Shown here: piece by piece, positions 1,262 through 9,792 of the stretch
How the letters are laid out: each line of letters opens with the position of its first letter
Numbering within the stretch: position 1 is the first letter of the stretch
Origin: Anaerolineaceae bacterium
GTDB taxonomy: Bacteria; Chloroflexota; Anaerolineae; Anaerolineales; Anaerolineaceae
Direction: 5' to 3'
Assembly: GCA_028714615.1 (NCBI GenBank)
Contig: JAQTMA010000152.1
Location: 1 to 9,792 of the forward strand
DNA length: 9,792 nt
Made by a program: the position numbers and the translations under genes
The notes under the pieces: generated by a model
Told to the model about the DNA's origin: nothing
Database searches by the model: none
What the model saw: only the letters and a program-made list of their open reading frames with translations

Positions 1262-1767
1262 GCGAACCGATCGCTTTAGCAGGACGGATTCGCGCCTATC
1301 TTGAAGACCTCGAAATGGTCGTTGACCGTTCGGTGTTGTTAAGCACCAAGGCATTACAATCCGGAGACGATGGCTACTGGGATGGAGTCGCTTTGAACTT
1401 GCATAGCTTTTATGGCGCAACAGAAAGAATCTTTGAGGACATCGCCCGTACGATCGATGGGAGTGTACCCTCTGGCCCCGATTGGCATCTCGGACTACTG
1501 GTTCAGATGTCGACAGAACTAATGGGACGACGCCCTGCGGTTATTTCACTCAAATTACGTGAAGGATTGGATGAATATCGAGGATTCAGACATGTAGTTC
1601 GGAATGTATACGCCTTCAATTTTCGGCCTTCCCGGCTGAAAGAGCTTGTCGACACCTTGCCTGGTTGCTTCGATTATTTACAGAACGATTTACGCATCTT
1701 CGCCCAATTCCTTGAGTCACTGGCGCCTTCATCGTCAATACAATCAGGGCAACTACCCCACGATTGA
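1258..1767 (+). CDS. HEPN / HepT-like protein (putative RNase toxin)
   Basis: A GTG start at 1258 overlaps the MNT stop (GTGA), giving 169 residues. The sequence is all-helical in character, with LNLHSFYGATERIFEDIA at about 47-63 and the conserved block EYRGFRHVVRNVYAFNF at 107-122. This matches the HepT-like family that partners MNT proteins in cyanobacteria and Chloroflexota. The canonical HEPN RNase motif is R-x4-6-H followed by a tyrosine. Here the basic and aromatic residues are R111, H112, R115 and Y118, and the expected histidine position after R115-N is occupied by F120. Activity may therefore depend on the shifted FRH residues or may be altered. The gene is convergent with, and overlaps by 15 nt, the 3' end of the sensor kinase gene, and no terminator hairpin is visible between them. 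Function as a toxin is inferred from family and pairing. Confidence 0.78.
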   Translation: MSEPIALAGRIRAYLEDLEMVVDRSVLLSTKALQSGDDGYWDGVALNLHSFYGATERIFEDIARTIDGSVPSGPDWHLGLLVQMSTELMGRRPAVISLKLREGLDEYRGFRHVVRNVYAFNFRPSRLKELVDTLPGCFDYLQNDLRIFAQFLESLAPSSSIQSGQLPHD

Positions 1768-3498
1768 ATTCCGCCGCACCGTGATCGTTGTCCCCTGTCC
1801 CGGTTTCGACTGGATGCTCAAATGCGCCCCGATCAGTTCGGCGCGTTCGTAGAGCCCCAGCAATCCATAATGGCCCTGCCGGGCATACCCATCCGGGGTG
1901 AGGGGCAGCACAAATCCATTCCCGTCATCCCGCACGGTCATTTGGAGCCGGTCCTGGCCAAATTCGACCACCAGCCAGGCCTGGCTGGCCCGCGCATGGC
2001 GCACGATGTTGCTCAACGCTTCTTGCGCCATCCGGTAGAGCGCCATTTCGACGTCCGGCGCCAGGCGGCATTCCGTCCCGCTGGTGGTCATCTGCACGGT
2101 GAGCCCATGGTTTTGCTGGACCTCGCTGGCTAGCATGTTCAAAGAGGCAACCAGTCCCAGGTCCTCCAGGTAGATCGGCCGCAGTCCGCGCACCATGCGG
2201 CGTAAATTGACCATCGTCTGCTGCACCAGTTTCTCGACGCCCTCCAGCGAGGTTTGCTCTTGCAGTTTGCCGGTCTTGAGATTGGCCAATTGGATTCTCT
2301 GGTTGATCGCAATCAACGCTTGCAGGGTGTCATCGTGAAGCTCGCGCGCCAGGCTGCGGCGCTCATTTTCAACCCCGGCCGTGATCGCGCCGATGTAACT
2401 GTGCAAGCTATCCTGGGCCTCTTGTAACCGTTCCGCCATCTCTGCGAGCCGAGACTGGAGGTTTTGGATTTCGGGTACACCTCCGACCGGCTTCCGGATC
2501 GACCCAAAATCTCCCTGAGCCAGCTCGCCGGCGCGCGATTCCAACGCTTTCAACGGCTGCACGATCTGGTGCAAGCCGAACCACAAGGCGATGATCATTA
2601 GCAAAACGACCGGGACAAGAACCAGGGGGGCCAACTGGGTCGTCTGGAGCAACGGGCCGGCAATGCTTTCCCAGGGCTCCTCCAACACCAGTCCCCAACC
2701 CACCCGCTGGATGGGGCTGAACGCGACGACATGCTCGCCCTGGCTGGTCGGGTAATAATTGATGCCACTCTCTCCCCGCAATGCGCTCTCGGATCCGGGG
2801 TGCGCCGCTGGATTTTCTTGAGGAACCAGACTCCCGATTTGGTAGATGACCTGGTCCTGGGGGGTGATGACCCAGGCAGCGATCTGGCTGGCGCCGATCA
2901 TGTCTTTCAGGGTGAGCTGGACGATCACGTCCGGGGAAAAGGCGCCAACCATGAGATCTCCTTGGGGAGTGGGGGCTGCGATGAAGGAGATGAAGGCGTG
3001 ACGCTTATCGTCAGGAAACACTGGGGAAAATTGAGCGCCGGTTTTGCTCTTTTGAAGAAAACTCACCCAACTTGCCAGGGTGGCGGCGGATTCTCGATCC
3101 ACCCACCCGGAAACATTCTGGTTCGAGGCGAGCAAGCTGCCGTCTGAAGCAAATAGCGCCACCCCCCGGTCAAAACTGGAGACGGCCACCTGATTGGAAT
3201 GAACAACATCCGTGAAAGTCTCCCCCGATCGTGAGGCTTCGGCCAGCATCTCGATACTGGCTTCCTGGTGAAAGAAGGATTGGTCCAGGCTGCTGGCGGC
3301 GGCTCGCACAGTGTGCAAATCGCGGTCGCCCACCAGCGAGCGCATGGCCTGGTTGTGTAATCCAACGCTCCCAAACGTCACCGCCAATAGTAAAATCGTG
3401 AGGGGCAGGACAACCAACACAAACAGTTGCAGCGTCACCCCTTGCCATAGCCGGCGAGAAAATCGCGGTTGGGATGGATCGGCCGGCGGCTGGGTCAT
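1753..3498 (-). CDS. Membrane sensor histidine kinase, Cache-HAMP-HisKA_3-HATPase (NarX/LiaS/DesK class)
   Basis: This 581-residue kinase has a first transmembrane helix at about 21-43. A large extracytoplasmic region of about 45-285 looks like a Cache domain (RGVALFASDGSLLASNQN at 111-128 and AAWVITPQDQVIYQIGS at 207-223). A second helix lies at about 289-309 and a HAMP segment at about 310-365. The HisKA_3 dimerisation domain carries the phospho-acceptor H388 in ARELHDDT, and the ATPase domain has N-box residue N497 (EALSNIVRHA), DDGNGF (524-529) and GHYGLLGLYERA (542-553). All catalytic elements are present. The ligand is unknown. ATG and the regulator's stop overlap as ATGA (3498-3495), so kinase and regulator form one operon with the regulator first. 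Its position divergent from the cytochrome genes suggests it senses a redox-related or extracellular cue and controls that operon; this is inference. Confidence 0.93.
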   Translation of the reverse strand: MTQPPADPSQPRFSRRLWQGVTLQLFVLVVLPLTILLLAVTFGSVGLHNQAMRSLVGDRDLHTVRAAASSLDQSFFHQEASIEMLAEASRSGETFTDVVHSNQVAVSSFDRGVALFASDGSLLASNQNVSGWVDRESAATLASWVSFLQKSKTGAQFSPVFPDDKRHAFISFIAAPTPQGDLMVGAFSPDVIVQLTLKDMIGASQIAAWVITPQDQVIYQIGSLVPQENPAAHPGSESALRGESGINYYPTSQGEHVVAFSPIQRVGWGLVLEEPWESIAGPLLQTTQLAPLVLVPVVLLMIIALWFGLHQIVQPLKALESRAGELAQGDFGSIRKPVGGVPEIQNLQSRLAEMAERLQEAQDSLHSYIGAITAGVENERRSLARELHDDTLQALIAINQRIQLANLKTGKLQEQTSLEGVEKLVQQTMVNLRRMVRGLRPIYLEDLGLVASLNMLASEVQQNHGLTVQMTTSGTECRLAPDVEMALYRMAQEALSNIVRHARASQAWLVVEFGQDRLQMTVRDDGNGFVLPLTPDGYARQGHYGLLGLYERAELIGAHLSIQSKPGQGTTITVRRNSIVG

Positions 3499-4178
3499 TT
3501 CGGATCGAGGTGCGCCAGGCTGGGGGAAATCAAGCCAATCGAGACCGCCCGCATGACGGCTTCCGTCCGGCTCGCAGCCTGTAATTTCTCGAAGATACGC
3601 GCCAGGTGGTTTTGCACCGTTCGCTCGCTGATCCCGAGTTGCACACCGATGGCTTTATTAGTGAATCCTTTCCCAGCCAGCGTCAGCGCTTCGAGTTCCC
3701 GGTGAGTCAACGGCTCCAGGGAAGTATCCGCCGGGCCACCGGCGATCCGCGCCATCAACTTGTGGGTGAGTGAAGCGTCAAGGACGGATTTCCCCAGGTG
3801 AACGTCCCGGACGGCCTGGATGATGTCGCGGGGGTCGGCGGTTTTTAACACATAGCCGTTAGCGCCAGCCTGCAGGACGGCTTTGATATAGGGGTCGTCG
3901 TCGTACGCGGTCAGAACCAGGAGGCCGACGGAAAGATGCTGACTGCGCGCCCACCGGGTCACGTCGATCCCGCTCTTTTTGGGCATCTGGATATCCAGGA
4001 CAGCCACATCCGGTAGGTTTTGCTCGATGAGTCGGATCGCTTCTTCGCCGTCGCCCGCCTCGGCGGTGACGACAATCCCTCCGGACTGCTCCAGGAACTG
4101 GCGAATGCCGGCCCGCACCACCGCGTGATCATCGGCGAGAAGCACCCGGATCGGGTTGTGGTCATTGTTTTCATTCAT
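3495..4178 (-). CDS. NarL/FixJ-family response regulator (REC plus LuxR-type HTH)
   Basis: From the ATG at 4178 the protein has 227 residues. The receiver domain (about 9-128) has acidic pocket D16-D17, phospho-acceptor D62 in VLDIQMP, T90 in LVLTAYD and K112 in GYVLK. The C-terminal LuxR-type helix-turn-helix includes LTHRELEALTLAGKGFTNKAIG followed by GISERTVQNHLARIFEKL, with the typical recognition helix. It would bind DNA as a dimer after phosphorylation by the adjacent kinase. An alternative in-frame ATG at 4220 would add 14 residues (MFIDERLNNQYNTG), but it lies upstream of a TATAAT box, adds nothing conserved and lacks a ribosome site, so I prefer 4178. No Shine-Dalgarno precedes 4178 either. 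The promoter spacing places the predicted +1 on the A of this ATG, consistent with a leaderless message. Confidence 0.93.
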   Translation of the reverse strand: MNENNDHNPIRVLLADDHAVVRAGIRQFLEQSGGIVVTAEAGDGEEAIRLIEQNLPDVAVLDIQMPKKSGIDVTRWARSQHLSVGLLVLTAYDDDPYIKAVLQAGANGYVLKTADPRDIIQAVRDVHLGKSVLDASLTHKLMARIAGGPADTSLEPLTHRELEALTLAGKGFTNKAIGVQLGISERTVQNHLARIFEKLQAASRTEAVMRAVSIGLISPSLAHLDPK

Positions 4179-4184
4179 GCCTGT

Positions 4185-4213
4185 ATTATACTGATTGTTG
4201 AGCCGTTCATCGA
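4185..4213 (-). promoter_or_regulatory. Probable promoter of the two-component operon, leaderless layout
   Basis: On the minus strand a perfect TATAAT occupies 4190-4185. With a 17-nt spacer, the -35 position falls on TCGATG (4213-4208), which matches only three of six consensus bases. Counting from the -10 box, +1 would be 4178, the A of the regulator's preferred start codon. The weak -35 overlaps a 14-bp palindrome, consistent with activator dependence or autoregulation. Confidence 0.5.
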
Positions 4214-4218
4214 TGAAC
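4205..4218. promoter_or_regulatory. 14-bp perfect palindrome, candidate operator
   Basis: GTTCATCGATGAAC is identical to its reverse complement over all 14 bases. It lies in the divergent control region, over the -35 position of the two-component promoter and about 95 bp upstream of the -10 of the cytochrome operon. A dimeric LuxR-type regulator is encoded immediately beside it, so it is a reasonable candidate binding site. No second copy was noticed in the window, and the binding protein is inferred only from position. Confidence 0.4.
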
Positions 4219-4272
4219 ATGCCGCAAATTGATTAATCGCGGATGGCGCGCTTATCATTTTTGCAAGGCCGA

Positions 4273-4339: not shown

Positions 4340-5644
4340 ATGGGAGAAATCTCGTTTGATGACACGCCGCTCACGAAAAGTCCGTTCCCCGTTTTCACTC
4401 AATTAAGCCCGGTTTCCTTCGGAATGAGACGACGACTTCCTTATTTCACGCCTGCATCTATCGCCTTCACCCTGCTCCTCTTTTTCGGTATAGGGTTCGC
4501 CGTCTGGAAAGCCGGTGGTCTTGTCATTAACCCGGGAGCCGTCAGTGCGAAATCTCAAGCGGGCGTCGTTCTCGAAGGCTTTGCTTCCCACGTGGATTTC
4601 GAAAAACAATGCGTCCTCTGCCACCAGCCTCTCACGAGTCCCCAGGCAGACTTGTGTTTGGGCTGCCATCAAAGCGTAAAGCGGCAAGTCAACGCCCGCG
4701 CCGGTTTCCATGGAAGCCTACCCACTGGCCGGCAGTGCGCCGCCTGTCACCGCGAGCATCAAGGCCGCCAATTCGACCCCACCGGGTTCGCCCTGGCCGG
4801 CTTCAACCACACCCAAACCCGCTTTCCGTTGACCGGTAAACACCTGCAGACGGCCTGTGCAGAATGCCATTCTGCCAGCCAGTACCGGAAATCTTCCATT
4901 GAATGCGTCGCCTGCCACAGCGACCCGAAAGAGCACACCGGGGTGTTCGAAGCGGCTTGCGCCGCCTGCCACAGCACGGATGCCTGGAAACCCGCTTCGG
5001 TGCACGGTGCGGTCTTCGACCATGCCAAGACGGCTTTCCAGCTCACCCGCCACACGCTCGATTACGCCCACCAGCCAATCTCATGCGCGGGCTGCCACCG
5101 CACCGGGGTGATTTCTGTCGACCAGCAGGCGACCTGTACGAGCTGCCATACCCAACAAGACCGAGCCTTTATGGAAAAGCACCAGAGCCATTACGGCGCC
5201 GACTGTTTGAGTTGCCACGATGGCGTCGACCGCATGGTACCCTTTGAACACGCCAGCTTCTTCCCCCTGGATGGGGCTCACGAGAAAGCAGCTTGCGGTA
5301 GCTGCCACGCCGACCAGAAATTCACGGGGACACCCACCGAATGCACCAGGTGCCACGCCGACGCCAAGATGCATGCGGGCGTTTTTGGCAATCAGTGCCA
5401 GGCCTGCCACACCACCGCCGCCTGGACGCCCGCTCATCTTTGGCTGCACACCTTTCCGCTCAACCACGGCGGGCAAGGGGAACAAACCTGCCAGACCTGC
5501 CACACCAAAACCTATGCGGACTACACCTGCATCAGTTGCCACGATCACCAACCCGATGAGCTCGCAGCCAGCCACGCTCCCCTGGGCATCCCGGCTGCGG
5601 ATTATCCGAAGTGTGACGTCTGTCACCCAGAAGGGAAGAAGTAA
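4340..5644 (+). CDS. Multihaem cytochrome c with 15 CxxCH motifs, N-terminal membrane anchor
   Basis: This 434-residue protein has 15 CxxCH c-haem sites, with first cysteines at 91, 106, 133, 173, 189, 207, 249, 266, 289, 319, 335, 353, 384, 397 and 425. Many further histidines (for example in FNH, FDH, GKH) could be distal ligands, suggesting low-potential bis-His haems. A hydrophobic segment at about 38-57 after MRRR is either a signal anchor or a signal peptide, with a weak possible cleavage after AVSA at 67-70. The haem part therefore lies outside the cytoplasmic membrane. The start is uncertain: ATG 4340 has no clear ribosome site, and ATG 4424 (MRRRLPYF) would give 406 residues and a more usual signal. 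Segments such as FFPLDGAHEKAACGSCH resemble cytochrome c3/c7-type modules. It is the first gene of a five-gene operon, 6 nt before the next cytochrome. A role in electron relay is well supported; the partner is unknown. Confidence 0.93.
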   Translation: MGEISFDDTPLTKSPFPVFTQLSPVSFGMRRRLPYFTPASIAFTLLLFFGIGFAVWKAGGLVINPGAVSAKSQAGVVLEGFASHVDFEKQCVLCHQPLTSPQADLCLGCHQSVKRQVNARAGFHGSLPTGRQCAACHREHQGRQFDPTGFALAGFNHTQTRFPLTGKHLQTACAECHSASQYRKSSIECVACHSDPKEHTGVFEAACAACHSTDAWKPASVHGAVFDHAKTAFQLTRHTLDYAHQPISCAGCHRTGVISVDQQATCTSCHTQQDRAFMEKHQSHYGADCLSCHDGVDRMVPFEHASFFPLDGAHEKAACGSCHADQKFTGTPTECTRCHADAKMHAGVFGNQCQACHTTAAWTPAHLWLHTFPLNHGGQGEQTCQTCHTKTYADYTCISCHDHQPDELAASHAPLGIPAADYPKCDVCHPEGKK

Positions 5645-5650
5645 CCACCA

Positions 5651-7309
5651 GTGGAAGCCTCCAAGCCTGGCTTCGTGCGGCGAGTGGTCTGGGGTCTTTG
5701 TACCCTGGCAATGCTCCTCTCCTTTGTGGGATTGGGTGCTTTTGTCGTATTAGCAGCGGTAGGTCCCTTCCACAGCGGAGCAGGGACAGCCTATACCGTC
5801 CAGCGCTGGGCCGAAGTGGGCATGGTGGAATTGGACCGCAGTCCAGGTGGAAAAGCCCACCACCTGTTGGATATCGCCGCTCGCCGGAACCGCGATTTGA
5901 TTGTGCAGCTCGGCTCGCCAACCGAGCAGACGGCTTTTGAGGAACTGGAGCAGAGCGTGGGCCAGGCCGTCCAAGCCGTCACCCAGGCGCCCCCCGATGA
6001 GGCGCTCACCTTGCGGACCCAATTGCTGACCGTGATGGAAGACGTCCTCATTACCCTGCCGAAGGTGCAATCGATGCCAGCACATGACCCGACCGGCTGG
6101 GAGAAGTTCCAGCTTTGGCACGCGGCTGTTCTGCAGCGCGCATTGAATGCCAACTTGCCCCTCGCCAGTCTGACGCAAAGCCAACCCCCTGGCTTGGCGC
6201 CTAGCTTGCCGGCTTCCCCGTGGAAGATTGGCCAGCCCACGCCCACGATACAACCGACCGAGAAAGCCATCGCTGCGCATTTCGTATACTTTCCGGCGGA
6301 CAGTCCAGGCGCCAGGCACGAATTTTACCCGCTCAGCGGGAAGCATCTCGGGCTGGATTGCCAGACCTGCCATACGACTGGCGCTTTTTCCGGCACGCCG
6401 GCGCGCTGCAGCGATTGCCATGCGTCGGTGACCCCTGTCCAACATTATCCTGGGAGCTGCGATACCTGTCACGTGAGCGTTGCCTGGAAGGAAATCCACT
6501 TCGATCACAAAGCCAATCCGACGACCGACTGTTTAACCTGTCACACCCGCAATGCTCCACCCAACCATTTCCAGGGGCAGTGCTCCTTATGCCATACGAT
6601 TTCCGCCTGGCTGCCAGCCACCTTCAACCATACGGCGGTGAAAGCGACCAACTGCGTCGCTTGCCACACGGACAAGCGCCCGGTCGACCATTACTCGGGC
6701 CAATGCTCATTGTGTCACTCCACCCAAAAGTGGAAGCCGGCGCAGTTCGATCATAAAAGCGCCTCAGCCGATGACTGCGCCAGTTGCCATCAGAAGAACA
6801 CGCCGGACAATCATTTCAGCGGTGCTTGTTCGGCCTGCCACGCCACAGATGCCTGGAAACCCGCCCACTTTGACCACGCTGCTGCGGGCGCCACGGATTG
6901 CCAGACCTGCCACACCGTGCAGCGGCCGGCTGGCCATTACAGCGGCCAATGTTCAGCTTGCCATACCCCGAACGCCTGGAATCCGGCCACTTTCAATCAT
7001 GCCGCCGCCAGCGCCACGGACTGCGGTACTTGCCATGCAAGCAATACGCCTGCCAACCATTTCACCTGGCAGTGTTCGGAGTGCCATACCCTCAACGGGT
7101 GGGTACCTGCCGCCTTCAACCATACCTTCCCGATGGATCACAACGGCGCCGGCGGCCAATGCGCCAACTGTCACAAGGCGAACACAAAGGATTGGGCCTG
7201 TACAACCTGCCACGCCCAAAACCAGATCGACTCGAGCCATCAAAGTATCCCGGGCTACGTCAGCAACTGCATGGGATGCCACGCGAATGGCAAGAAACCC
7301 GGCGATTAA
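5651..7309 (+). CDS. Multihaem cytochrome c with 16 CxxCH motifs and tandem two-haem units
   Basis: A GTG start at 5651, with a purine-rich GAAGGGAAGAAG stretch about 9 nt upstream, gives 552 residues. A membrane helix spans about 11-38 after VRR. A haem-free, mainly helical region follows (about 45-220), containing HHLLDIAARRNRDL and EELEQSVGQAVQAV, and it ends in a Pro-rich linker. Its helical pattern faintly recalls DUF5667-like regions, but I do not claim the family. The C-terminal 320 residues hold 16 CxxCH sites with first cysteines at 237, 253, 270, 294, 311, 335, 352, 376, 393, 417, 434, 458, 475, 504, 517 and 540. Each repeat also carries an HF/HY and an F[DN]H histidine, enough for bis-His ligation of both haems. 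It should lie outside the membrane as an elongated electron wire. It shares its C-terminal module with the preceding cytochrome. Confidence 0.93.
   Translation: MEASKPGFVRRVVWGLCTLAMLLSFVGLGAFVVLAAVGPFHSGAGTAYTVQRWAEVGMVELDRSPGGKAHHLLDIAARRNRDLIVQLGSPTEQTAFEELEQSVGQAVQAVTQAPPDEALTLRTQLLTVMEDVLITLPKVQSMPAHDPTGWEKFQLWHAAVLQRALNANLPLASLTQSQPPGLAPSLPASPWKIGQPTPTIQPTEKAIAAHFVYFPADSPGARHEFYPLSGKHLGLDCQTCHTTGAFSGTPARCSDCHASVTPVQHYPGSCDTCHVSVAWKEIHFDHKANPTTDCLTCHTRNAPPNHFQGQCSLCHTISAWLPATFNHTAVKATNCVACHTDKRPVDHYSGQCSLCHSTQKWKPAQFDHKSASADDCASCHQKNTPDNHFSGACSACHATDAWKPAHFDHAAAGATDCQTCHTVQRPAGHYSGQCSACHTPNAWNPATFNHAAASATDCGTCHASNTPANHFTWQCSECHTLNGWVPAAFNHTFPMDHNGAGGQCANCHKANTKDWACTTCHAQNQIDSSHQSIPGYVSNCMGCHANGKKPGD
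6407..7144 (+). repeat. Six in-phase 123-bp coding repeats (41-residue two-haem units)
   Basis: Starting at C253 of the 16-haem cytochrome, six successive units have the form CxxCH-x12-CxxCH-x19, with no insertion or deletion. Odd haem cysteines fall at 253, 294, 335, 376, 417 and 458, and even ones at 270, 311, 352, 393, 434 and 475, exactly 41 apart. Conserved positions in each unit are an H[FY] before the second haem, a Trp (W279, W320, W361, W402, W443, W484) and FDH or FNH. The last unit flows into the C-terminal three-haem cap. The DNA copies have diverged by many substitutions, so the duplications are not recent. Confidence 0.9.
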
Positions 7310-7324
7310 CATCAAGGAAACCCG

Positions 7325-7603
7325 ATGAACATACGAAACATATTCAAACCGGAAGCGACCCGTCACCGGGTCATGACTGACAGCTACATCATGACCAATC
7401 AAGCCCTCTGTGTACAATGTGGAATCTGTTCGTTCAACTGCCCACTCAATATTGACATCCGCCACCATGCCTGGTTAGGGAAGCCGGTGAAAGACAGCCG
7501 GTGCTTAACCTGCGGAGAGTGTATTGCGCGTTGTCCGCGGGGGAGCCTACGGTTTGAGCAAACGCGACTCAACGCAGACAGTTTCGATTCGCAGGCTGAT
7601 TGA
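7325..7603 (+). CDS. Small 2x[4Fe-4S] ferredoxin-like protein
   Basis: This 92-residue protein has two cluster motifs, CVQCGICSFNCP (C29, C32, C35, C39) and CLTCGECIARCP (C60, C63, C66, C70), each with the CxxCxxCxxxCP pattern. The 20-residue insert between them (about 40-59, LNIDIRHHAWLGKPV) is longer than in clostridial ferredoxins and recalls the HdrC/GlpC-type iron-sulfur subunits. There is no signal peptide, so it is cytoplasmic. A good ribosome site, AAGGAAA, lies at 7314-7320. It sits 15 nt after the cytochrome stop and 1 nt before the flavoprotein start, so it is very likely an electron carrier or subunit between the flavoprotein and the membrane b protein. Confidence 0.9.
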   Translation: MNIRNIFKPEATRHRVMTDSYIMTNQALCVQCGICSFNCPLNIDIRHHAWLGKPVKDSRCLTCGECIARCPRGSLRFEQTRLNADSFDSQAD

Positions 7604-7604
7604 G

Positions 7605-8930
7605 ATGCGCCGGTATGTCATCATCGGCACCAGCGTGGCGGGGATCGCCGCTGCCCAGGTCATTCACCAGCAAGATGGCAACAGTCCGGTGATCCTCATT
7701 GGCGACGATCCGGGCGGCTACTATTCACGGCCTGGCATGGCTTACTACTTGACCGGAGAGATGAACGAAAATTTCTTATTCCCGCTGAGCGACGACCAAT
7801 TCCAGGAACTGAAGGCGGAGAGGATCGCGGACCACGTCACTCGCATCCATACGGCTGAATACCGGGTGGAATGCCGTTCGGGCCGCAGTTTTCAATTCGA
7901 CCGGCTGCTCATCGCGACCGGATCAAAAGCCATCCGCCTTCCGGTCCCGGGGATCGATCTGGAAGGGGTGGTAAAGCTGGACGACCTGGAAGATGCCAGG
8001 CAGATTCGCAAGCTGGCGCGCAAAGGCCGGACTGCAGTGGTCGTCGGCGGCGGAATTATTGCGTTGGAATTGGTCGAGGGGCTCTTAGCCCAGGGAGTGC
8101 GGGTACACCTGTTCCTGCTCGGTGACCGCTTTTGGAATACCGTTTTGGAAGAAACAGAAGCACAAATCGTAGAGGAGCGTTTGAGGAAGGAAGGCGTCGA
8201 GATCCACACCCACACTGAGATGATGGAAGTAGTCGGGCGCCGGGGGAAGGTGTCCGAGGTGCTGACCAAAGATGGCCGGCGGTTCAAGGCTGATATCCTG
8301 GCCGTTGCAGTCGGGGTCAGGCCGGCCAAAGAACTGGCGGTGGAATGCGGGATCAAAACCGATCGGGGCATCTTCATCAATCCGTGGATGGAGACCAGCC
8401 AGGCAGATATCTATGCGGCGGGAGACGTGGCGCAGGTGTTCGACCAGGCCAGCGGGAAATGGGTGGTGGAGAGCTTGTGGGTGACTGCCAATTCCCAGGG
8501 GCGCGCGGCCGGGCTGAATATGGCTGGCTTACCGACCCCCTACACACGTGCGCCGGCCATCAACGTCACCCGCATGGCCGGGATGACCACCGCCCTGATC
8601 GGCGCAATCGGGCTGGGGGGTGGGGACGACCTGATCAGCATCACCCACGGTGATAGCGAATCCTGGCGCGACAGCCCAGAGGCGATCGTGAGCCGCATCG
8701 ATTACGACCTCAACCACGTCCGCATCATCATCGGAGAGAAAACGATGATCGGTGCGGTGGTGATGGGCGACCAGGGACTGACCCCCATCCTACGCGATTT
8801 GATCCTGAACCAGGTGGATATTTCCCCGATCCGTTCGGAACTGATGGCAGTGAATGCACCCGTTGGAGACCTGGTTAACCGTTTATTGAAACACTCAAGG
8901 AATGATGGGAACGATGCGCAGCGGGCGTGA
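7605..8930 (+). CDS. FAD/NAD(P)H-dependent oxidoreductase (rubredoxin/nitrite reductase-like flavoprotein)
   Basis: From the ATG at 7605 (sequence TGAGATG, one base after the ferredoxin stop) the protein has 441 residues. An upstream in-frame ATG at 7524 would overlap the ferredoxin gene by 80 nt and precede the Rossmann fold by a non-conserved tail, so it was rejected. The FAD site is YVIIGTSVAGIAAAQ (4-18), LLIATGS lies at 101-107, the NAD(P) site is VVVGGGIIALELVEG (145-159), and the second FAD motif is DIYAAGDVAQ (268-277). The C-terminal part (about 370-410, IIIGEKTMIGAVVMGDQG) resembles the NADH-rubredoxin reductase/NirB-type domain. There is no redox-active CxxC, so it is not a disulfide reductase. 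It probably exchanges electrons between NAD(P)H and the adjacent ferredoxin. It is cytoplasmic. The next gene overlaps its 3' end. Confidence 0.92.
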   Translation: MRRYVIIGTSVAGIAAAQVIHQQDGNSPVILIGDDPGGYYSRPGMAYYLTGEMNENFLFPLSDDQFQELKAERIADHVTRIHTAEYRVECRSGRSFQFDRLLIATGSKAIRLPVPGIDLEGVVKLDDLEDARQIRKLARKGRTAVVVGGGIIALELVEGLLAQGVRVHLFLLGDRFWNTVLEETEAQIVEERLRKEGVEIHTHTEMMEVVGRRGKVSEVLTKDGRRFKADILAVAVGVRPAKELAVECGIKTDRGIFINPWMETSQADIYAAGDVAQVFDQASGKWVVESLWVTANSQGRAAGLNMAGLPTPYTRAPAINVTRMAGMTTALIGAIGLGGGDDLISITHGDSESWRDSPEAIVSRIDYDLNHVRIIIGEKTMIGAVVMGDQGLTPILRDLILNQVDISPIRSELMAVNAPVGDLVNRLLKHSRNDGNDAQRA

Positions 8931-9729
8931 GCTATGGCTATCTCTGGTAGCCATCCTGTTCGTCACCCTGCTCTACGCGTTTGTGACGACAATCCAGGGC
9001 GGATTCCCGAGCGCCAATTCCTTCTTCGGCGAAGCGCTGGGTGTGCTGGGATTTGTGCTCATGCTTCTGACAGAGACGCTGTATTCCCTGCGCAAACGCA
9101 GTCGTAATGCGCGTTGGGGAAGGATCGCTTCCTGGTTCGAGCTGCACATCTTCACCGGACTGGTGGGCCCATATATGGTGCTGCTGCACTCCTCGTGGAA
9201 GTTCAACGGCCTGGCCGGGGTGGTGACGTTACTGATGGTGATCGTGGTTATCAGCGGGTTCGGGGGGCGCTTCATTTATACGGCCGTCCCGCGCAGCGCG
9301 GATGGGGTTGTGCTGGATGCGGAGCAGATCGAAAACCAAATCACCGGCATCGAGGAACAATTGCAGTCCTGGCTGGCAAGCCACCCGGGGACAGTGGGAG
9401 AGATTCCACGCCGGATTGGCGCAACCTCCGCAAACGGCGGGTCGGGAGCAACCCGGGTCTTGGGGCAGCCTTTCTGGTTTGGCCGCGAAAAATTGGCCTG
9501 GTGGCGGGCTATCCGGCACATTGGCGCTCGGGAGCGAGCGCAACTGCGCCAGTTGGAGCGGCTGGTGGAACAAAGGGACCGGCTGCGGCGCCAACTAGGT
9601 TCTTTGGCTGCCATGCGCAGGCTGCTGAGCTACTGGTACATCTTCCATATCCCCATCGGACTGGGGCTCTTCATCCTGGCCTTCCTGCACGCAGGCACCG
9701 CTATTTACTTTACCATCCTGGCGAAGTAA
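8902..9729 (+). CDS. Membrane protein with cytochrome b-like bis-haem histidine pattern
   Basis: I do not recognise a named family. The 275-residue product has hydrophobic helices at about 11-29, 44-60, 80-98, 104-121 and 244-270. A hydrophilic, charged stretch at about 130-240 contains a probable coiled coil (RERAQLRQLERLVEQRDRLR at 210-229). Two helices each carry a histidine pair: H82 and H96 in ELHIFTGLVGPYMVLLHSSW, and H249 and H263 in FHIPIGLGLFILAFLHAGT. Both pairs are 14 residues apart, the layout by which cytochrome b helices hold two stacked haems across a membrane. The product would thus link the cytoplasmic flavoprotein and ferredoxin to the external cytochromes c. The start is uncertain: ATG codons at 8902, 8905 and 8914 are all possible (AAGGA at 8897-8901, GGGAA before 8914). 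All overlap the flavoprotein gene. Confidence 0.75.
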   Translation: MMGTMRSGRELWLSLVAILFVTLLYAFVTTIQGGFPSANSFFGEALGVLGFVLMLLTETLYSLRKRSRNARWGRIASWFELHIFTGLVGPYMVLLHSSWKFNGLAGVVTLLMVIVVISGFGGRFIYTAVPRSADGVVLDAEQIENQITGIEEQLQSWLASHPGTVGEIPRRIGATSANGGSGATRVLGQPFWFGREKLAWWRAIRHIGARERAQLRQLERLVEQRDRLRRQLGSLAAMRRLLSYWYIFHIPIGLGLFILAFLHAGTAIYFTILAK

Positions 9730-9792
9730 GTTGGGCAGGGCTGCTGGCCAGGCTAAGCTGGAACGCCCAATCGCTCGCGCGATCCCAGGATG
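9730..9792. other. Downstream edge, no assignable gene
   Basis: This 63-nt tail after the membrane protein gene has a 6-bp inverted repeat (TTGGGC at 9731-9736 and GCCCAA at 9765-9770) but no T-run, so I do not call a terminator. The final three bases are ATG, and another gene of the operon may begin at or beyond the edge. Nothing supports a specific call. Confidence 0.3.

Follow-up and report, generated by a model that had tools for sequence, protein, structure and literature searches.

A 9,792-nucleotide stretch of DNA from an Anaerolineaceae bacterium (the window, by which we mean the whole stretch that was analysed) carries, at positions 4340-9729 of the plus strand, a cluster of five genes encoding redox proteins, namely two multihaem c-type cytochromes, a ferredoxin-like subunit, a flavoprotein and a membrane protein, here called the b protein, which on its sequence looks like a two-haem cytochrome b. 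The cluster is a real and widely conserved redox unit, for which no name was found. We hold with moderate confidence that it is a transmembrane exporter of electrons from NAD(P)H, which needs no quinone and feeds chains of multihaem cytochromes. The independence of this exporter from quinones is probable, and a transmembrane conduit from NAD(P)H to multihaem cytochromes is its likely mode of working.

The gene set and its conservation

All five open reading frames (ORFs) of the cluster lie on the plus strand, and each was located where the original prediction had placed it. The first (4340-5644; 434 amino acids, aa) encodes a c-type cytochrome with 15 CxxCH haem motifs, which may alternatively start at Met29 (about 4424), and the second (5651-7309; GTG start, 552 aa) encodes a c-type cytochrome with 16 such motifs. 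They are followed by the gene for a 2x[4Fe-4S] ferredoxin-like subunit (7325-7603; 92 aa, with two C..C..C...C sites), cytoplasmic by prediction, by that for an FAD/NAD(P) pyridine-nucleotide oxidoreductase (7605-8930; 441 aa from an ATG start, or 468 aa from an alternative TTG start at 7524), and by that for the b protein (8902-9729; 275 aa), a member of an unnamed family that is predicted to bind two haems. Successive genes are separated by 6, 15 and 1 nucleotides (nt), and the last two overlap by 29 nt. The ORF analysis confirmed this predicted arrangement, while the predicted types of protein are borne out by the CxxCH counts, the Pfam matches and the alignments reported below. A start of the b gene at 8914 is likelier than one at 8902, because of the database copy P0001 (271 aa) and of the starts of relatives, and would reduce the overlap to 17 nt. 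The results of a promoter scan (4 found, 1.7 expected) and of a terminator scan (3 found, 4.8 expected) were not used.

When the GTDB genome collection was scanned with the b protein, 165 places were found to encode a relative, and the best 80 were analysed as loci. These are mostly from Chloroflexota, with four from Planctomycetota (L043, L062, L072 and L075) and one from a metagenome-assembled genome of Actinomycetota (L045). In 67 of the 80 loci, the b gene has both a ferredoxin and a flavoprotein gene no more than 4 kb away and in the same orientation. Seven more have the flavoprotein without the ferredoxin; six of these loci start no further than about 1.3 kb from the b gene, and the other one (L056) has room for a ferredoxin gene, of which none was detected. 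The last six have neither gene, and in four of these the b gene stands at one end of the locus. A cytochrome with at least seven CxxCH motifs is encoded near the b gene in 68 of the 80 loci. Several of the 12 loci without one end at or just after the b gene, while L016, L017 and L024 extend for more than 5 kb after it and yet have no multihaem cytochrome. Of the 44 loci in which the b gene is preceded by more than 4 kb and followed by more than 2 kb of sequence, 42 contain all four kinds of gene, i.e. ferredoxin, flavoprotein, b protein and a cytochrome with at least seven CxxCH motifs. The occurrence of the genes together in other genomes, which the original prediction had left to a gene-neighbourhood search, is thus established. 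The b proteins of the loci share 36-65% identity with that of the window, and the linkage is therefore old.

The order of the genes varies between loci, while the genes remain together. If F stands for the ferredoxin, N for the flavoprotein and c for a multihaem cytochrome, the order F-N-b-c is found in 33 of the 80 loci, c-c-F-N-b in 8, c-c-F-N-b-c in 5, c-b-F-N in 2 and b-F-N in 1, with others in the rest; the order of the window, c-c-F-N-b, is contained in 14. No additional conserved neighbour emerged from an all-against-all comparison of 623 flanking ORFs, in which no family occurred in more than 12 of the 80 loci; the commonest one (12 loci) is composed of ABC-type ATPases. On one contig (L069), the module is present twice in tandem, each time as ferredoxin, flavoprotein, b protein and cytochrome, with a 41-motif ORF between the two copies. 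It might be argued that five unrelated redox genes have come to lie side by side by chance, a view for which no support was found beyond the fact that each gene family is common alone. With the linkage in 42 of 44 loci, the co-location of genes that have been reordered, and a fusion in another phylum (see below) all speaking against it, the probability of such a coincidence is negligible.

Electron carriers and the proposed path across the membrane

The best evidence for a single electron path across the membrane comes from natural gene fusions in Planctomycetota. In a search of 292 planctomycetotal genomes with the alignment of the b proteins, 84 gave a match at E<=1e-5, in some cases inside frames of 740-880 aa, and 20 regions were then chosen by hand. 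In 14 of these 20 hand-picked loci (in the range L101-L114), a single ORF of 735-838 aa encodes a triple fusion of the 4Fe-4S protein, the flavoprotein and the b protein. All 14 have a same-strand c gene with at least seven CxxCH motifs, which adjoins or overlaps the fused frame in 13 and is about 1 kb away in L101. The remaining six have a ferredoxin-flavoprotein fusion beside a separate b gene, and all six have c genes with at least seven motifs. The presence of ferredoxin, flavoprotein and b protein in a single chain is therefore strong evidence for one putative path leading from NAD(P)H through FAD and the iron-sulphur clusters to haem b.

The fused form is abundant: of 8000 candidates that were scored, 7810 reach E<=1e-20. 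Query coverage is 91-100% in the best 120 of these; the rest may match only in part. Where those 120 are named, they are called NAD(P)-binding protein, thioredoxin reductase/ferredoxin, Ferredoxin--NADP reductase or similar. In the fused ORF of L098, whose database twin is named Phycisphaera sp., Pfam recognized a [4Fe-4S] domain, then a flavoprotein domain, and then DUF4405/Ferric_reduct below threshold. The best NCBIfam match of the L098 flavoprotein is YpdA (141.2 bits, below the cut-off of 339.9), which is a different subfamily from that of the window; therefore, the b protein keeps the same kinds of partner while the flavoprotein differs.

Of 7308 candidate sequences, 4499 proved to be homologues of the window's b protein (E<=0.001). 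In the best 120 of them, the four that carry an organism name are from Anaerolineales, and most of those with any protein name are labelled hypothetical. The protein matches no Pfam family at E<=0.01 and no NCBIfam family, with DUF3701 at 0.015 as its only hit. All of 57 aligned sequences share its histidines H82/H96 and H249/H263, each pair forming an HX13H motif. When the set was widened to 120 sequences (from the 80 first loci, 14 fused proteins, 6 other Planctomycetota, 13 distant Chloroflexota and 7 others), all 120 proved to have the first pair, and the second occurs in each of the 116 that reach that far; this corresponds to about 118 distinct sequences, because L134 repeats L060, and the L074 and L076 proteins are identical or nearly so. 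In NOX enzymes, HX13H pairs on two helices bind the stacked haems, and the two pairs of the b protein conform to this pattern; the binding of two haems is a prediction here.

An AlphaFold2 model based on the 57 sequences (mean predicted local distance difference test 86.2, predicted template modelling score 0.74) shows helices at residues 6-32, 41-66, 75-96 and 104-128 and a long last helix at 209-273, with three more helices within the large loop between helices 4 and 5, and suggests that the protein has five membrane helices. The paired histidines had been predicted in a protein of at least four helices, and this is how they are found in the model. Only four segments stand out in a plain hydropathy scan, and the helix carrying H82 and H96 is not one of them. 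Loop 62-77 and the large loop have a charge of +6 each; positive loops fit the cytoplasmic side, which would place H82 and H249 near the inside and H96 and H263 near the outside. A short form of the protein, of about 184 aa, has lost most of the large loop and retains the four histidines.

As for the family to which the b protein may belong, no relevant relative was found among solved structures by sequence search, and the VIA structural match with Dcytb was undistinguished. The window protein has no match to PF01292 (prokaryotic cytochrome b561/Ni-hydrogenase cytochrome b) at E<=10, and among the relatives scanned, L134, P0007, P0029 and L092 score 27.4, 25.2, 27.6 and 20.5 bits, respectively, with a cut-off of 30.1. 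It has no match to PF01794 (Ferric_reduct/NOX) either, a family that appears below threshold in two planctomycetotal relatives. DUF4405 is likewise found below threshold in two relatives from Planctomycetota, and as precomputed annotation on some of the listed fusion relatives. The b protein is thus not placed in any named family.

The flavoprotein, which would supply the b protein with electrons, matches Pfam Pyr_redox_2 (4.6e-55) and is related to PadH, to the FAD subunit 8c0z_E, which is its best solved relative and is titled potential subunit of aldehyde oxidoreductase, and to NirB N-domain flavoproteins. Its best NCBIfam match is PadH (NF045765), at 196.5 bits and thus below the equivalog cut-off of 475. 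Enzymes of the PadH and 8c0z_E type are NADH-linked, and their FAD subunit exchanges electrons with iron-sulphur subunits. A Glu in the nucleotide pocket, which marks NAD binding, is present in 8c0z_E and 6pfz_D; at the same place, 70 aligned flavoproteins have Leu (57), Met (6), Ile (5) or Gln (2). This position is followed by Arg, a sign of NADPH preference, in 69 of the 70. At the like place, Arg is also found in all 13 proteins from distant Chloroflexota, in 13 of the 14 fused proteins of Planctomycetota (the pattern for the site gave no match in the fourteenth, L106) and in all six ferredoxin-flavoprotein fusions. The nucleotide pocket of the relatives therefore appears to be of the NADP(H) type, which hints that NADPH is the likelier donor in the family.

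The ferredoxin matches Pfam Fer4 families, and all eight of its Cys are retained in 68 of 68 aligned sequences, that of the window included. The role of a dedicated subunit suits it better than that of a connection to the ferredoxin pool. The original prediction, which saw the five proteins as a joint conduit connected to both the NAD(P)H and the ferredoxin pools, consequently needs to be adjusted on this point: the conserved unit and a single path across the membrane, entered through an NAD(P)H flavoprotein, are supported, and a connection to the ferredoxin pool is the less likely reading.

For the two cytochromes, which are predicted to lie on the other side of the membrane, the 15 and 16 haem motifs compare with 0.17 and 0.14 expected from composition. 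Both proteins match the cytochrome c7/c3 families of Pfam (for the 15-haem protein, Cytochrome_C7 at 7.6e-17 and Cytochrom_c3_2), and contain 20 (15-haem) and 18 (16-haem) further His as candidate distal ligands, which would be enough for bis-His haems. Against HmcA (NF045713) they score 31.2 and 17.7 bits, respectively, where the equivalog cut-off is 400. The 15-haem protein has a single N-terminal hydrophobic helix (residues about 45-63), and 65 of the 100 cytochromes with at least nine CxxCH motifs in the 80 loci match it at more than 150 bits. The 16-haem protein is composed of an N-terminal helix (19-37), a haem-free stretch of roughly 200 aa and tandem 41-aa units with two haems each, its CxxCH motifs being spaced alternately by 17 and 24 residues.

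Its 22 relatives (more than 150 bits) have from 10 to 42 CxxCH motifs, several of them in long runs with a period of 40-42 residues, and at least three (L006, L019 and L067) are cut by a contig end. One of the 22, at L030:5166-8375, is a 42-haem protein of 1069 aa, in which 33 motif pairs are spaced by 40-42 residues. The haem-free N-terminal part of the family gave a sub-threshold match to DUF5667 (E 8.7e-4) in L001:6749-8380. According to the available part of a study of Chloroflexota, gains and losses of motifs in multihaem cytochromes may involve pairs or multiples (PMC7399161). A hydrophobic segment precedes the first haem in 93 of the 100 cytochromes and follows it in one, as would be the case for anchored, outward-facing proteins. 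Summed over the c genes near the core, the haem motifs reach 61 in one locus, with a median of 21 in the 68 loci that have such a gene. Also in favour of the exporter, c-haem assembly genes (PF01578) were found in all 24 module-bearing genomes of a Chloroflexota sample described below, and in 18 of 20 that lack the module.

Direction of electron flow and alternative roles

In the mechanism that we propose, the flavoprotein would receive an electron pair from NAD(P)H on its FAD in the cytoplasm, and would pass it on, one electron at a time, to the dedicated ferredoxin subunit with its two [4Fe-4S] clusters. The b protein would then move the electrons through the membrane by means of two haems b, the inner one bound by H82-H249 and the outer one by H96-H263. 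Outside, the two membrane-anchored cytochromes c, with 31 haem motifs in all, would accept, spread, store or conduct the electrons, whose final acceptor, be it a mineral, a humic substance, another cell or another redox protein, would be located beyond the cell membrane. We favour an outward flow, since the cluster encodes no pump and the membrane potential, negative inside, drives electrons outward.

The same carriers could also operate in reverse, as an inward conduit through which extracellular donors or partner cells would reduce NADP+ for biosynthesis. We consider this unlikely. No pump is encoded that could pay for bringing electrons inward against the potential, down to about -320 mV, and Pfam recognized no oxidase of an outside donor in the cluster of the window. 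On the other hand, all the carriers are reversible in principle, and the NADP(H)-type pocket found in the relatives would suit the supply of biosynthetic reductant. In addition, anodic as well as cathodic currents, not tied to the module, are described for one Chloroflexota isolate in the accessible part of a published report (PMC5808234).

The original prediction also stated that no terminal reductase is encoded. None was recognized in the cluster, down to the end of the window at 9792, or directly after the b gene in the eight relatives with exactly the same gene order (c-c-F-N-b), in which the nine ORFs that come next were scanned against Pfam. These encode a sensor/HD protein in L001, an ABC transporter in L012, an amidohydrolase in L027, a response regulator and a protein without a Pfam family in L035, an S-adenosylmethionine synthetase in L036, another protein without a Pfam family in L039 and an acetyltransferase in L048; in L042 (7247-7972), the gene overlaps the end of the b gene and encodes a five-motif cytochrome of the NapC/NirT type (29.3 bits, cut-off 24.1), beyond which no reductase was recognized when the list of ORFs was judged by eye. 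The CxxCK motif, which is the mark of NrfA-type nitrite reductase, is absent both from the two cytochromes of the window, which have only CxxCH, and from every ORF with at least three CxxCH motifs in the 80 loci. An NCBIfam match to octahaem tetrathionate reductase is weak and covers 34 residues.

Several observations weigh against the exporter as proposed, and are best considered together. Among 400 genomes drawn evenly from Chloroflexota and searched for the b protein, 52 gave a match (E<=1e-10), of which 24 were strong (better than 1e-60), one was at 1.8e-41 and 27 were weak. In all 13 of the 27 weak-match loci that were inspected, a flavoprotein gene precedes the b gene and no multihaem gene is present in 9-13 kb; therefore, the core need not serve extracellular transfer. 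One of these 13 distant core loci (L121-L133) is from Ktedonosporobacter rubrisoli, and in five of the six that were read (L121, L122, L126, L130 and L131) a ferredoxin gene lies between the flavoprotein and the b genes, while in L123 it is not among the ORFs listed. COX1 was found in 23 of the 24 strong-match, i.e. module-bearing, genomes, so that the hosts usually have another electron sink; of 20 genomes that lack the module, 15 have it. In Ardenticatena maritima, a Chloroflexota isolate with electrode activity, there are at most seven haem motifs per protein, as far as the accessible text of its description indicates (PMC5808234).

Other points on the same side concern the gene set itself. 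Neither the direction of flow nor the acceptor is encoded in it, and no biochemistry on it was found. L024 and L061 have the b gene without ferredoxin or flavoprotein in spite of the available flank, and must be regarded as real misses. The fused proteins of Planctomycetota have, by pattern, one canonical 4Fe-4S motif instead of two. Foldseek gave no significant match with the model of the b protein, and hhalign gave no confident relation of the b family to PF01292, PF01794 or bc-type sets (the best value was 33%, with seven PF01794 proteins, and shuffled-column controls of the PF01292 and PF01794 sets were lower). Residue 172 of the window flavoprotein (8118-8120) is Leu, the sole exception to Arg among the 70 aligned proteins, which could be either a true change of nucleotide preference or a sequence error. 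Finally, NapC/NirT proteins are usually quinol-linked, and an input of quinone electrons beside the core is therefore possible in L042.

Part of this evidence would suit a different function, in which the core supplies reductant outside the cytoplasm in a general way, for thiol or haem reduction, Fe(III) uptake or oxidative defence, and the multihaem proteins act as a store or distributor rather than as a respiratory wire. The related core without multihaem genes in all 13 distant loci inspected, the oxidases that most hosts possess, and the fact that NADPH, more than NADH, is the usual donor for maintenance jobs all point in this direction. However, up to 61 haem motifs per locus would be a heavy investment for maintenance, and no common maintenance partner stood out among the flanking ORFs. 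As an account of the cluster, we regard this function as rather unlikely, although not far-fetched: a maintenance role is the natural reading for the core form without multihaem genes, and is possible for the multihaem-bearing form. For the latter, a specialized extracellular use is likely, and extracellular respiration by the cluster is plausible.

The presence of COX1 in nearly all the module-bearing genomes and the NapC/NirT-type protein after the cluster in L042 could also be taken to indicate an ordinary respiratory branch, leading from NAD(P)H or quinol through the b protein and the multihaem cytochromes to an oxidase or to a reductase of a soluble acceptor encoded elsewhere. Nevertheless, COX1 is common in genomes without the module too, none of the eight relatives with the same gene order has a recognizable oxidase or reductase directly after the b gene, and CxxCK is absent from every multihaem ORF in the 80 loci. 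Moreover, proteins with 15-42 haems are not known to serve as oxidase donors. An ordinary respiratory branch appears quite improbable, and we retain the exporter from NAD(P)H to multihaem cytochromes as the preferred interpretation.

Neighbouring genes, related systems and significance

The remaining genes of the window precede the cluster. A gene on the minus strand (3-803), cut by the window edge, encodes 5'-3' exonuclease domains of the DNA polymerase I N-terminal type. Two plus-strand ORFs overlapping by 4 nt (893-1767) encode a nucleotidyltransferase (Polbeta/NTP_transf_2, with a weak MntA match) and a HepT-like_2 protein, in a layout like that of a toxin-antitoxin pair of the HepT/MntA type. 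A histidine kinase (HisKA_3, with HAMP below threshold) and a NarL-type response regulator are encoded on the minus strand (1753-4220), with an overlap of 4 nt, divergently from the cluster and 119 nt away from it. This two-component system was considered as a member of the unit and rejected, since a similar pair is found within 8 kb in just 3 of the 80 loci, and in one of the 26 loci with 8 kb on both sides.

In agreement with the original prediction, no named complex was found to fit the cluster, and the gene set is not named in the open-access literature that was searched, a scope that leaves out most subscription journals and bioRxiv preprints. The NOX/FRE reductases are similar in that electrons pass from NAD(P)H to FAD, to two stacked haems b and to an outside acceptor. 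The present system differs in that its flavoprotein is of the pyridine-nucleotide-disulfide type, separate or N-terminally fused, in that it has an additional 4Fe-4S subunit and multihaem c-type acceptors, and in that no protein of the window matches the Ferric_reduct profile. Phenylglyoxylate dehydrogenase (PadEFGHI) and aldehyde oxidoreductase (AorABC) contain a homologous FAD/NAD subunit paired with iron-sulphur subunits; unlike them, the window has no substrate dehydrogenase subunit, has a membrane b partner, and lacks the NAD-selecting Glu. In CbcL, multihaem c and b domains are fused, whereas the window encodes them by separate genes and not, as in CbcL/MtrH/MtoC, in one chain. The 15 and 16 CxxCH motifs of its cytochromes also differ from the 4 to 5 haems of the single-helix-anchored CymA/NapC/NrfH proteins, and no porin family, as required for an Mtr/porin-cytochrome complex, was found by Pfam among the ten window proteins scanned.

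The bacterial inner-membrane gates to multihaem chains that are covered in the accessible part of a review are quinol oxidases of three families, CymA, CbcL/MtrH/MtoC and ImcH (PMC6295460). They are comparable to the present cluster as inner-membrane entries to a multihaem c chain, but are themselves multihaem c-type quinol oxidases, whereas here the b protein would be served by a linked flavoprotein and ferredoxin, with no need for a quinone step. In Mco of anaerobic methanotrophic (ANME) archaea, a membrane cytochrome b gene likewise stands beside a multihaem c gene; that cytochrome b is, however, a VhtC relative, the c protein has 7-11 haems, the system is thought to be fed by methanophenazine, and the available portion of the text mentions neither a flavoprotein nor a ferredoxin (PMC9012536). 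The DUF4405 cytochromes of flavinylation clusters are small membrane proteins with four conserved haem-b His, for which outward electron flow is also assumed; according to the accessible part of their description, they have six membrane helices and extracytosolic flavoproteins (PMC11334425), in contrast to the five modelled helices and the multihaem c partners found here.

In Anaerolineales, large multihaem cytochromes differing in haem number have been reported, with no porin complex found; within its available part, the study gives no membrane link or inner gate for these proteins (PMC7399161), and the cluster described here is a candidate for this link. We tentatively propose, with slightly less than even confidence, that it belongs to an unnamed and widespread family of NADPH-driven, quinone-independent exporters. 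Their three-part core would be separate in Chloroflexota and partly or fully fused in Planctomycetota, with the b protein kept and the flavoprotein exchanged (PadH/NirB-like or YpdA-like), while the wires would vary by steps of two haems and 41 residues. Such a family might represent the inner-membrane gate that has so far been missing for the monoderm Anaerolineae.

If this is true, a conserved unit leading from NAD(P)H through haem b to multihaem cytochromes would supply Anaerolineales with a route from the cytoplasm to their multihaem cytochromes, and electron export would be tied to the NADPH pool without the involvement of quinone. The b protein, with its 4499 matches, would then be a marker of this potential among metagenomic proteins.

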